Shown here piece by piece: positions 11,138 to 60,326 of a stretch of 64,000 nucleotides of DNA. Location of the stretch: NCBI GenBank assembly GCA_008080565.1, contig VIKE01000017.1:62001-126000 (forward strand), read 5' to 3'. Position 1 is the stretch's first letter. Each line of letters starts with the position of its first letter. The position numbers and the translations under genes are program-made. This stretch comes from Rhodocyclaceae bacterium (GTDB taxonomy: Bacteria; Pseudomonadota; Gammaproteobacteria; Burkholderiales; Rhodocyclaceae). The notes under the pieces were generated by a model. It ran no database searches. It was not told the DNA's origin and was given only the letters and a program-made list of their open reading frames with translations.

Positions 11138-11177
11138 TCCCACGGTCAACCGGAAAAATTGGTCAAAAATGAAATCG
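11138..11177 (-). repeat. Dispersed 38-bp element, copy 1
   Basis: Exact core (CCGGTTGACCGTGG on the minus strand, 11140-11153) with an AT-rich arm. It lies in the trhP/yegQ frame and is read as HGQPEKL, shortly after the cluster-binding cysteines. Confidence 0.8.
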
Positions 11178-11254
11178 AGTACCTGCTCGAAGAAAAGCAG
11201 CGTCCGGGCGAACTCATGCCGATCGAGGAAGACGAGCACGGCACCTACATCCTG

Positions 11255-11294
11255 AACTCCAAGGATCTGCGCGCAACTCCAAGGATCTGCGCGC
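11255..11294 (+). repeat. 20-bp exact tandem duplication inside trhP/yegQ
   Basis: AACTCCAAGGATCTGCGCGC occurs twice head to tail (11255-11274 and 11275-11294). The unit is not a multiple of three and causes the frameshift. Confidence 0.95.
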
Positions 11295-11874
11295 CATCGA
11301 GCATGTGCACCGTTTGGTCGAAATCGGCGTCGATTCGCTGAAGATCGAAGGTCGCACCAAGAGCCCGTATTACGTCGCGCGCACCAGCCAGGCTTACCGC
11401 CAGGCCATCGACGACGCCGTCGCCGGCAAGCCGCTCGACCCTGCCCTGCTCCGCGAGCTCGAAGGTCTGGCCAACCGTGGCTACACCGATGGTTTCCTGC
11501 AGCGTCATCACGATGCCGAGTACCAGAACTACCTGCGCGGCAGCTCCGAATCGGATCGCAGCCTCTACGTCGGCGATGCCGTCGCTTTCGATACCGCCCG
11601 CGGCCTCATGGAAATCGAGGTCAAAAACCGATTCTCCGTTGGCGACCGTCTGGAATGTGTGCATCCCTCGGGCAACCATGTCCTGACGCTGACCCGCATG
11701 GAAAACCGGAAAGGCGAATCGGTCAGTGTCGCCCCCGGCAGCGGCCATCGGGTGTGGATTAATTTACCCATCATGTACACCAATTCGTTCGTCGCGCGTT
11801 TTGTGTAATTAGACCTTACAAAACAAACGGGGTTAAGTATTGTGCACTGCAACAATCGGTGTACACTCAAGGCC

Positions 11875-12987
11875 ATGAGCAAAGTTTCCAACCGCATGCC
11901 GCTGATCGACGCCCTCAAGGCAGTCGCAGCGCTCCTCGTCCTGCTCAACCATTTCTCGTCTTACGGCCCGCTCGCTGCGGCGGCCCGCGAAACCTTGCCA
12001 GGACTTTTTGGCTGGTTCTTTGAATACGGCCGCATGGCCGTTCAGGTCTTCCTGGTCATCGCCGGTTTTCTTGCCGCCCGCGGCCTGTCATCACAAGGCC
12101 AGGCGCTCGCCGTTTCGCCACTGCCGCTGATCTGGAAGCGCTATCTCCGGCTCGTCGTGCCTTATCTCGCCGCCATCGGCCTGGCCATCATTGCCGCCGC
12201 CGTCGCCGATCAGTGGCTGGATGACGAGGTCGTTCCCGCCCGTGCCACCTTGTCGCAATGGCTGGCCCACGCCTTCCTGCTGCATAGCCTGCTCGGCTTC
12301 GACGCCCTGTCGGCCGGCGTTTGGTACATCGCCATCGACTTCCAGCTTTTCGCGCTGATGGCCGTGCTGCTCTGGGCCGGCCGCCGCGACATCGTTGCCC
12401 CGGCCCTTGTTCTACTCACTGCCCTCGCCTCGCTGTTCTGGTTCAATCGCGATGCCAGCTGGGACAACTGGGCAATCTACTTTTTCGGTTCCTACGGCCT
12501 CGGCGCCGCTGCGTGGTGGGCTTCTGACCGCCGACAACTGTCGGCCTGGCTAGGGGTCATCGTTACCATCACCATTGCGGCGCTGGTCATCGATTTCCGG
12601 CTGCGCATCGGACTGGCCCTGGCGATCGCCCTGTTGCTTGGTTTCGGCCGCCGCTCCGGCCTCCTCGAACAATGGCCGAATGCCCGGCCGCTGGCCTTCC
12701 TCGGCCAGATCTCGTATTCGCTCTTCCTGGTGCATTTCCCGGTCCTGCTACTGGCCAACGGGCTCTATGCGAAACTTGGCCTGGAGTCCCACTCCTCGGC
12801 CATGATCGGCCTGGTTCTGGCCTGGACCGCCAGCCTGATCGCGGCGACGCTGTTCTACCACTGGGTCGAAAGCCCGACGGCCAGTCAGCGCATCACGGCC
12901 GCCATCAACGGACTGTGGATCGGTTTGCTGCAACTGGCGCAGCGCGCCGGACGACTGGCCCGCCGCGCCGTGCTCGGCCGCGCCTAA
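11875..12987 (+). CDS. Acyltransferase family 3 membrane protein
   Basis: About 370 residues from the ATG at 11875 (AAGG nearby); an upstream GTG would add eleven residues with no better site. [22 protein letters not shown] holds the family's RxxxxKhxAxxhVxxxH-type start with the essential His, and around ten hydrophobic segments follow, matching the acyltransferase_3 (OafA-like) fold that transfers acyl groups from the cytoplasm to surface sugars. The C-terminus is short and basic, and no SGNH domain is attached. Convergent with acetoacetyl-CoA synthetase, with stops overlapping by a few bases. The substrate cannot be told from sequence. Confidence 0.85.
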
Positions 12988-58322: not shown

Positions 58323-58335
58323 GGCTTCATCCGTT

Positions 58336-58869
58336 TCAGAAACAATGTCCGCTCTTCGCCTCGACCATGATCGGCCAGAGATACTCGAAGGCCTGCCCGT
58401 CGCAGGACTTGGGACAACTGTTGAATGCAATCGTTACTTTCGGACCCTGTTCCCACATGCGAACCAGGCAATCCGACTGTTTCTTGTGACGCAGCAAGGC
58501 TTGCGGCATTTTTTCTATCTGCTCGAACTCGTTCAGATCAAAGCGGCAGGTGCCGTGCCCCTTCATGCTGACCTGGGCGACAAAGGTCTTGACCTGGGCT
58601 TCCTTGACCAGCAGGTCTAGCCGCGTCTGCGTCCCGATGGCATCACGATGCGTACAGCGCGAGCGGACATTGAGCGGGCGCGTCGGCTGCGGCTTGAGGT
58701 TGCGATTGGCCAGATACTTGAGTGTCGAGTTCTTGAACTTCGGTTCCTTGCTTTCTGCCGCCGGCTTGTCGACCACCGGCTCTTCGGCAGCAACGATTTC
58801 CGGCTGCTTCTCGACCTCGGCACAACCGGCCGCTGCCAGAACGACAACAAGCAGCAGACGCCGCCACAT
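58336..58869 (-). CDS. Putative lipoprotein between gatA and gatB
   Basis: A 177-residue protein with a lipobox ([15 protein letters not shown]). The mature part has a Pro/Glu-rich stretch, then a domain with four cysteines ([26 protein letters not shown]). No family recognised. It lies between gatA and gatB on the same strand, two bases from gatA, so it is probably transcribed with them. It is not part of the amidotransferase. Confidence 0.7.
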
Positions 58870-58871
58870 GC

Positions 58872-60326
58872 CTATTCGACGGCCGCCCGGCGCTGATGCC
58901 AGTCGGTCGCCTGCTGATAACGGTGCGCCACGTTGAGCAATTGCCCTTCGGCAAAATAGTCACCGATCAACTGCAGGCCAACCGGCAAGCCACCGACAAA
59001 GCCGCAGGGAATCGACATGCCGGGCAGACCAGCCAGATTGACGGCAATCGTGTAAATGTCGGAAAGATACATCTGCACCGGATCGGCGGCTTTTTCTCCA
59101 AGCTTGAAGGCGGTCGACGGTGAGGTCGGCCCCATGATCACGTCGCAGGATTTGAAGGCTTCGACGAAATCGTTGGCAATCAATCGACGGATACGCTGCG
59201 CCTGCAGGTAATAAGCATCGTAATAGCCGTGTGACAACACATAAGCGCCGATCATGATGCGTCGTTTGACCTCGGCACCGAAGCCCTGAGCACGGGTCTT
59301 TTCGTACATCTGCTCGAGGTTGTCGTACTCGGGCGCGCGATAACCGTAACGGGCGCCGTCGAAGCGCGACAGATTGGAACTCGCTTCGGCCGGCGCGATG
59401 ACGTAATAGGCCGGCACCGACAAATGCGAGTTGGGTAGCGAGACTTCAACCGTCGTTGCGCCGAGCTTTTCATATTCGGCAATCGCGGCACGAACGGCAG
59501 CCATCACCTCGGCATCGCAACCTTCGCCGAAGAATTCCTTGGGCAGGCCGATGCGCAGACCGTTCAGCGGCTTTTCCAGATCGCGGGTGTAGTCCTCAAC
59601 CGGGCGATCCAGCGAAGTCGAATCGCGCTCGTCGAAGCCGACCATGGTATTGAGCAACAGCGCGCAATCTTCGGCGCTGGCCGCCATCGGGCCGCCCTGG
59701 TCGAGCGACGAGGCAAAGGCGATCATGCCGTAACGCGAAACCACACCGTAAGTCGGCTTGAGGCCGGTCAGATTGCACAGTGCGGCCGGCTGGCGGATCG
59801 AACCACCAGTATCGGTGCCGGTTGCGGCAGGCGCCAAACGAGCGGCAACCGCAGCGGCCGAACCGCCGGAAGAGCCGCCAGGCACTCGGCTGGTATCCCA
59901 AGGATTGCGCACCGGGCCGAAGAACGAGGTTTCGTTCGACGAACCCATGGCGAATTCGTCCATATTCGTCTTGCCCAGCGACACCATCCCGGCGTCGGCG
60001 TGCATTTTGTGAATGACCGTCGCGTCATAGGGCGAAACGAAATTGGCCAGCATTTTCGAGCCACAGGTCGTCGTCCAGCCCTCGGCGCAGAAGATATCCT
60101 TCTGGGCAATCGGGATACCGGTCAGCGGGCCGGCCGTGCCAGCGGCGATACGAGCATCGGCAGCCAACGCCATTTTCAGGCTTTTTTCCCGGTCGACCGT
60201 GACAAAGGCGTTGAGCGTCGGGTTCAGGCGCTCGATACGATCAAGGAAGAGCGTCGACAGTTCGACGCTCGAAATCTGCTTGGCGGCCAGGGCCTGCGAC
60301 AGCTGCTTCAGGCTCTTGTTGATCAT
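58872..60326 (-). CDS. gatA: Aspartyl/glutamyl-tRNA amidotransferase subunit A
   Basis: A 484-residue amidase. [11 protein letters not shown] carries the catalytic Lys and [20 protein letters not shown] the Ser-cisSer-Lys amidase signature. It releases ammonia from glutamine for GatB. A dispersed-element copy near residue 42 is read as [12 protein letters not shown]. Start overlaps the gatC stop by four bases. Confidence 0.97.
60166..60205 (+). repeat. Dispersed 38-bp element, copy 14
   Basis: Core with two mismatches at 60189-60202, arm TTTTCAGGC. Read on the gatA strand as VTVDREK, near residue 42. Confidence 0.75.

Follow-up and report, generated by a model that had tools for sequence, protein, structure and literature searches.

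A dispersed 39-nt motif with several dialects in an Azonexus/Dechloromonas-type genus, probably a DNA uptake sequence of natural transformation

The literature that we searched describes self-recognising uptake sequences for Pasteurellaceae and Neisseriaceae only. The uptake signal sequence (USS) of Pasteurellaceae occurs in a Hin type, AAGTGCGGT, and an Apl type, ACAAGCGGT (PMC1626085). For H. influenzae, uptake is reported to depend crucially on the inner GCGG, and a rigid, slightly bent form is predicted for the AT segments (PMC7811141). The DNA uptake sequence (DUS) of Neisseriaceae is a motif of 10-12 nt, without flanking motifs in the accounts given in PMC1626085 and PMC3630211, and several dialects are reported among close relatives (PMC3630211). 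The receptors are minor pilins, namely ComP in Neisseria and, according to modelling, ComN in Pasteurellaceae (PMC12616744). Here we analyse a dispersed element found in a 64,000-nt stretch (hereafter the window) of a 5.2-Mb Rhodocyclaceae genome assembled in 152 contigs, of which contig 86 holds the window. The element very probably serves natural transformation as a DNA uptake sequence, in Betaproteobacteria of an Azonexus/Dechloromonas-type genus, and we read it as a third uptake-sequence lineage with its own dialects.

The core of the element, CCGGTTGACCGTGG, has 16 matches in the window at no more than two mismatches (five exact, five with one change and six with two). Dinucleotide shuffles give a mean of 0.57 and a maximum of 3, with 0 of 100 reaching 16, in line with the expectation of less than one match in 64 kb given in a preliminary description of this DNA. 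Two of the matches, at 13371 (+) and 32462 (+), have two mismatches and lack the AT-rich arm, and were rejected as members. The other 14 (five exact, five with one change and four with two) lie on both strands with an AT-rich arm 5' of each, all at the places reported previously. In 456 kb from this genome, 68 core matches at no more than one mismatch define a conserved stretch from -22 to +16 around the core, which reads ATTTCAAWTTTTGGCCnWWTTTTYCCGGTTGACCGTGGnA. The conserved core and AT arm of the preliminary description are thereby retained, while its length of 38 bp becomes 39 nt. The motif consists of a sharp, near-invariant 14-nt core, T/A-rich segments and a 3' A; AT segments occupy -1 to -6 and -12 to -17, about one helical turn apart, and a T block lies at -19 to -21. 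The core is an inverted repeat, as had been noted, imperfect over its inner ten bases and perfect in the GTCGAC forms. In addition, the most over-represented 9-, 10- and 12-mers of the sampled DNA are words of the core.

A 39-position matrix was trained on the 456 kb and used to scan the same DNA. It finds 103 sites of at least 14 bits, compared with 0 in the reversed sequence; this density is biased upward, because the matrix was trained there and part of the DNA was picked from contigs with exact cores. Less biased densities therefore come from the window and the blocks syntenic to it. The window alone has 14 sites of at least 25 bits in 64 kb, and its armed matrix sites number 16, namely the 14 copies and two weaker sites, each of about 23 bits, at 23728-23766 and 35934-35972. 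Among 99 sites of at least 20 bits in the sampled DNA, 48 have an exact core, 18 a single and 18 a double mismatch, so that perfect cores outnumber singly mismatched ones by 48 to 18; the distribution is similar to that of the USS, for which a strong consensus is described (PMC1626085).

The layout is like that of the Pasteurellaceae USS, a sharp core flanked on one side by a pair of AT segments whose centres are about 12 positions from each other. The preliminary description had named this layout as its first reading, which is supported by testable sequence hallmarks in the window's genome and its clade. Further likenesses to the USS as described in PMC1626085 are dialects by subclade, a strong consensus, copies both in genes and between them, and an origin other than insertion. 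Several dialects of the present motif read GCGGTC on the other strand, like ANNNGCGGT, which is common to both USS types and is given as the centre inferred for the ancestral USS. However, the USS core, AAGTGCGGT or ACAAGCGGT, directly followed on its 3' side by segment 2 and about 12 positions on by segment 3, is not matched: the CGGT centre and the two-segment layout alone are shared, whereas core and offset differ. Unlike the USS, the window's own dialect reads ACGGTC, the invariant part is GTYGACCG, the distance of both AT segments from the shared CGGT is greater by about 6 nt (counted on logos), the host belongs to Betaproteobacteria, and more dialects occur within one genus. The density is roughly 200-300 sites per Mb in the window's clade (first matrix), compared with close to one per kb for the USS.

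The DUS of Neisseriaceae, whose receptor is ComP, is likewise betaproteobacterial and has several dialects among close relatives, and the window's genome, like the DUS hosts, has a minor pilin over the Pfam ComP_DUS cut-off. In contrast to the DUS, the GCCGTCTGAA-type sequence of which is unrelated, the present motif has flanking AT segments, and the ComP_DUS-family pilin found here does not follow its distribution. By sequence, the motif stands outside the families of both Pasteurellaceae and Neisseriaceae motifs, and it resembles both in its workings as far as can be judged from sequence.

Across the whole of the window's genome we counted 581 cores (273 + 308) at no more than one mismatch, in both orientations, compared with 8 (3 + 5) for the reversed pattern. 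The preliminary description had named a genome-wide count close to random expectation, or copies restricted to the window, as outcomes that would refute it; neither is the case, as the hundreds of copies are far above chance and occur throughout the genome and in other genomes of the genus. In the blocks syntenic to the window, the matrix finds 193-250 sites per Mb in G052, G043, G002, G056 and G003, as against 17 in the outgroup G048, and extrapolation from this density gives roughly 1,100 copies for the whole genome. Counts of cores at no more than one mismatch range from 167 to 637 in nine of 60 congeneric genomes, the window's among them, and do not exceed 85 in the remaining 51, many of which are near the control; of 40 genomes that represent 40 further families of the order, none has more than 8. 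A PolA tree of 50 genomes includes eight of the nine core-rich genomes and places them in one clade (support 100/98). When a degenerate pattern was searched in 297 genomes of the family, at least 39 matches were found in 10 of the 12 genomes of this genus, 19 in G048 and 2 in G022, and at most 3, which is background, in each of the 285 genomes of 67 other genera; the pattern requires a T run beside the core, and dialects of other genera could therefore have been missed. The exact 20-base form of the window's dialect occurs in at least 100 stretches of public records. The matches listed are metagenome-assembled genomes, and their record titles name Azonexaceae, Azonexus, Dechloromonas, Betaproteobacteria, Proteobacteria, uncultured Rhodocyclaceae and one Gammaproteobacteria.

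Dialects were surveyed in 20 congeners, with 49 to 392 kb sampled from each and GTYGACCG as the anchor. This word is over-represented 1.55- to 2.94-fold in 15 of them, palindromic places being counted twice, which inflates the values of the palindromic forms; in the other five the ratio is below 1. The AT-richest 4 nt upstream, whose AT fraction is 0.63 to 0.85, start at -19 or -20 in 14 of the 15 positives and at -9 in G056. Five of the positives belong to the window's clade, and ten lie outside it. The non-clade congeners comprise six picked for raised earlier counts (G034, G011, G031, G005, G245 and G008; five positive), one picked for synteny (G048, negative) and eight picked mainly for long contigs (G022, G035, G047, G024, G020, G039, G030 and G051; five positive). 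Matrices seeded on GTYGACCG plus AT-rich upstream sequence find 17 to 105 sites per positive genome, compared with 0 to 3 in controls. GTYGACCG and the upstream AT segment are common to the dialects, and the tail varies: GTTGACCGTgGcA in the window's genome, GTcGACCGCaGCa in G034, GTcGACCGCAaCagg in G020, GTcGACCGCAa in G008, GTCGACCGT.aac in G031, GTcGACCGTG.aa and GTcGACCGTGgaa in G011 and G245, and GTcGACCGcggcA in G030. The common core word of G011 and G031 is a perfect palindrome. No motif was found by this anchored survey in the sampled DNA of G048, G022 and G035. G005 (27 sites, control 7) was not counted as a carrier, nor was G047, where the matrix drifted to an unrelated word (52 sites, control 2). 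Outside the 20-congener sample, G044 gave no motif seed in 40 kb, most of which is an insert in comEC. On the PolA tree, midpoint-rooted for drawing only, motif positives and negatives are interleaved: G011 pairs with the motif-less G022 on long branches, G008, G031 and G051 form one clade, and G034 and the others lie elsewhere. Either the trait goes back to an early stage of the genus and has since been lost in places, or it has been gained on more than one occasion.

The 103 sites comprise 47 between genes, 49 in genes and 7 across a gene edge. Their spacing is more even than chance: 90 sites with 81 gaps have a coefficient of variation of 0.62 and 2 gaps below 1 kb. None of 5000 simulations with the same genic/intergenic split, which average 17 gaps below 1 kb, has so low a coefficient, and none of 20000 simulations with uniform placing reaches it. 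Neighbouring copies are mixed in orientation, 46 pairs pointing the same way and 35 opposite ways (p 0.27; judged on stretches of 19 to 100 kb). Separately, among the exact matches listed, two inverted core pairs 4-5 nt apart were seen at G000 C4:10409-10440 and C59:8488-8520.

Even spacing would also be expected if the motif were bound inside the cell by a protein that organises or segregates the chromosome (nucleoid-associated, MatP-, SlmA- or Noc-like), dense, even sites then serving to shape the chromosome. The inverted-repeat symmetry of the core, complete in the palindromic word common in G011 and G031, and the presence of copies at the same places across the clade would fit such a site too. 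Chromosome-organising sites are, however, not known to reach the roughly 200-750 copies per Mb found here. About half of the copies lie in genes, the sequence varies between congeners and was not found in five of 20, and the consensus is very strong; the remaining profile is that of uptake sequences. The preliminary description had offered a chromosome-organisation site as another reading; copy number, genic copies and dialects make it less likely, and it stays a rival to which we assign a small probability. An effect of a DNA methyltransferase or restriction system, comparable to the HIP1 repeats of cyanobacteria (PMC4390886), is suggested by the palindromic hexamer GTCGAC and by the central GTYGAC of all dialects found, but a hexamer enzyme has no need of an asymmetric, conserved 39 nt with AT segments up to 22 nt away, which leaves this origin very improbable.

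Copies are enriched 2.4-fold between genes, and this excess is an upper estimate because the gene caller, which covered 81% of the DNA, misses some genes. The enrichment could point to transcription terminators or regulatory operators. Nevertheless, the intergenic copies (23 between codirectional, 7 between convergent and 6 between divergent genes, and 6 more in long gaps) are proportionate to the sequence available in each class, and about half of all copies are in genes, so terminators or operators are a still fainter prospect. Of the copies inside genes, 34 of 49 are oriented against the gene (p 0.009); an orientation bias is also reported for the uptake sequences of Pasteurellaceae and Neisseriae (PMC2346458).

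Sites of at least 30 bits, drawn from the window and from the blocks of G052, G043, G002, G056 and G003, were aligned to their homologous places, G048 being added. We kept 345 of 412 pairs, with at least 70% identity in both 60-nt flanks, and dropped 67 with a flank too diverged; the pairs are not independent, because one site is counted from several genomes. An element-sized gap at a copy was found in 0 of the 345. Among 77 pairs in which one side lacks the motif at 25 bits, 40 are gapless, and gaps on the motif-free side reach at most 11 nt; at the sites 11137 and 26107, several pairs scored as 'absent' are artefacts of an adjoining indel, with the core present. At least one gapless motif-free homologue exists for 23 of 79 site entries, and copies therefore arise and decay by substitution. 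Thus, point substitution rather than insertion is the origin of the copies, as Redfield et al. showed for the USS with the same kind of test (PMC1626085). Conservation of the motif within the clade is slightly above that of the flanks (0.89 compared with 0.87, 266 pairs). The alignment of loci with and without copies, a check proposed in the preliminary description, therefore contradicts its suggestion of a tiny mobile repeat: a mobile or REP-like repeat spread by insertion would agree with the strong consensus and the dispersed copies, but it is refuted for alignable sites by the 0 of 345 and by the gapless alignment of copies in polA and other genes with motif-free homologues, and retains next to no probability.

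We return to the uptake-sequence reading, for which we infer the following course. Double-stranded DNA would be gripped at GTYGACCG and the dialect-specific tail by a receptor on the cell surface that belongs to the type IV pilus and is most likely a minor pilin, and the AT segments, one helical turn apart, may help the DNA to bend into the secretin pore. DNA carrying the motif would be taken up more often, which is what defines an uptake sequence, recombination of this DNA would spread point changes that improve the motif, and copies would build up evenly through the genome by substitution. ComEC family matches were found in 26 of 26 genomes, 24 of them over the cut-off and near full-length in 19, among them the window's. 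All of the 14 genomes searched for DprA have it, and a short ComEA exceeds the cut-off in 12 of 14. A cluster of minor pilins in the window's genome comprises a ComP_DUS-family pilin, a GspH-family pilin, PilW and a PilV-like frame that falls just short of its cut-off; the first is a minor pilin of 145 aa that scores 40.2 bits (cut-off of Pfam ComP_DUS, 27.3).

comEC of G002 is split by about 33.5 kb of DNA at 52% GC between flanks at 60-65% GC. This foreign insert, the only one considered, has 0 sites at 14 bits, compared with about 8 expected (P about 2e-4). The related insert of about 33 kb in comEC of a second species, G044 (C1, about 2218700-2251150), aligns with that of G002 (C33, about 109617-143311) in blocks 80-92% identical. 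The genes of the G002 insert encode a tyrosine recombinase, a family-B DNA polymerase, a P4-type primase, a Type ISP restriction-modification protein, and DUF4917, NADAR and CHAT-domain proteins, a set reminiscent of pipolins. Pieces of comEC lie tens of kb apart on one contig in G005 and G018 as well as in G002 and G044, and comEC may therefore be an integration hot spot. In G035, G008 and G055, comEC looks broken or cut by contig ends.

Several observations weigh against an uptake sequence. Even spacing, as said above, would equally suit a chromosome-organising site. The state of comEC was rejected as a predictor of the motif, because the gene is broken in the motif-carrying G002, G055 and G008 and near full-length in the motif-less G022, G047 and G048. 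The search for a short ComEA gave nothing over the cut-off in the window's genome, an assembly of 152 contigs, or in G043, a single contig; the weaker matches in both lie within long frames. Neither the FimT-like nor the ComP_DUS-family pilins, compared as candidate receptors, follow the distribution of the motif. Homologues of the ComP_DUS-family pilin, sought in a limited set of retrieved loci, also occur in the motif-less G035 and G047, and the nearest one in G052, which has the same dialect, is just 51% identical. The FimT-like pilin (profile from G034 and G031) exceeds 200 bits in 6 of 33 genomes (G031, G034, G056, G039, G040 and G032), the window's not among them; G048 and G058 have nearly whole-length matches of 75-83 bits, and the rest partial ones or none. 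Finally, the open-access papers listed by literature searches include no uptake assay and no report of competence in the genus. The same searches covered the element, competence in Dechloromonas, Azonexus and Rhodocyclaceae, and uptake sequences, and among the papers listed none describes such a motif in the genus. PF12019 matches were set aside as receptor candidates, being a mixture of paralogues. The nearest homologues of the ComP_DUS-family pilin (contig 85) among the retrieved loci of G052, G002 and G043 are 40-51% identical, whereas PolA is 95-98% identical; the minor-pilin cluster apparently evolves fast or is exchanged.

The individual copies in the window are as follows. That at 11137..11175 (-, 59.7 bits) has an exact core and lies in a peptidase U32-family gene; the core is also present in G052, G043, G002, G056 and G003, and a 12-nt indel adjoins its 3' edge. 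The copy at 14174..14212 (+, 50.7 bits), with one core mismatch in an acyl-CoA synthetase-type gene, is gapless in five clade genomes. An exact core at 16617..16655 (+, 60.2 bits) is intergenic by the gene caller, and a core with one mismatch at 19611..19649 (+, 46.3 bits) lies in a cytidylyltransferase-like gene, where the outgroup G048 is without the motif (-33 bits) in a gap-free alignment. The polA gene that served as the PolA query holds two copies. The weak one at 23728..23766 (-, 22.9 bits) is gapless across all six compared genomes, G048 lacking the motif; at the exact one, 24535..24573 (-, 30.0 bits), G048 and G003 have ordinary sequence instead, with no gap. At the homologue of 24535-24573, polA of G043 and G056 carries a near-identical 27-nt insertion at the motif position, which does not occur in G052, G002, G003 or G048. 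The exact core at 26107..26145 (-, 51.2 bits) lies across a gene end. A copy with two core mismatches at 33399..33437 (+, 56.2 bits), in a histidine-phosphatase-family gene, is common to five clade genomes, and the exact core at 34148..34186 (+, 54.0 bits), intergenic by the gene caller, is found in five clade genomes at 47-61 bits with a flank identity of 0.80-0.89.

In the second half of the window, the weak copy at 35934..35972 (-, 22.8 bits) lies in a gene and is stronger, without gaps, in G002 (34.5 bits) and G056 (32.6 bits). Single core mismatches are found at 38060..38098 (+, 50.8 bits; GTCGAC form, in a CobQ/CbiA-family gene, with 14.9 bits and no gap in the outgroup G048), at 39874..39912 (+, 55.4 bits; near the end of a nitroreductase-family gene) and at 41853..41891 (+, 59.7 bits; across a called gene start). 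Two cobalamin riboswitches (RF00174), at 36095-36292 (-, 90.8 bits) and 38983-39165 (+, 86.4 bits), lie near the CobQ/CbiA-family gene. Two core mismatches occur in each of the last three copies: 43418..43456 (-, 35.6 bits), intergenic by the gene caller and covered by a 318-aa open reading frame (42577..43533), 57305..57343 (-, 45.1 bits) in a gatB-type gene (GatB families), and 60167..60205 (+, 37.6 bits) in an amidase-family, gatA-like gene (Amidase family).

With regard to the relation to the Pasteurellaceae, the USS code might be one radiation across two bacterial classes through homologous receptors, an old or exchanged minor pilin, rather than a case of convergence. The GCGGTC centre and paired AT segments would then be shared because these receptors, being related by descent, have a common mode of DNA binding. 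We regard such a common origin as rather unlikely. If the element is indeed an uptake sequence, it would add a third lineage, of environmental bacteria, with about six dialects in one genus alongside congeners in which the motif was not found. This would allow tests of how uptake codes start, change and vanish, and of what a change of dialect needs from the receptor. Some of these organisms matter in wastewater treatment and perchlorate reduction, and the motif would also hint at how they may be transformed.

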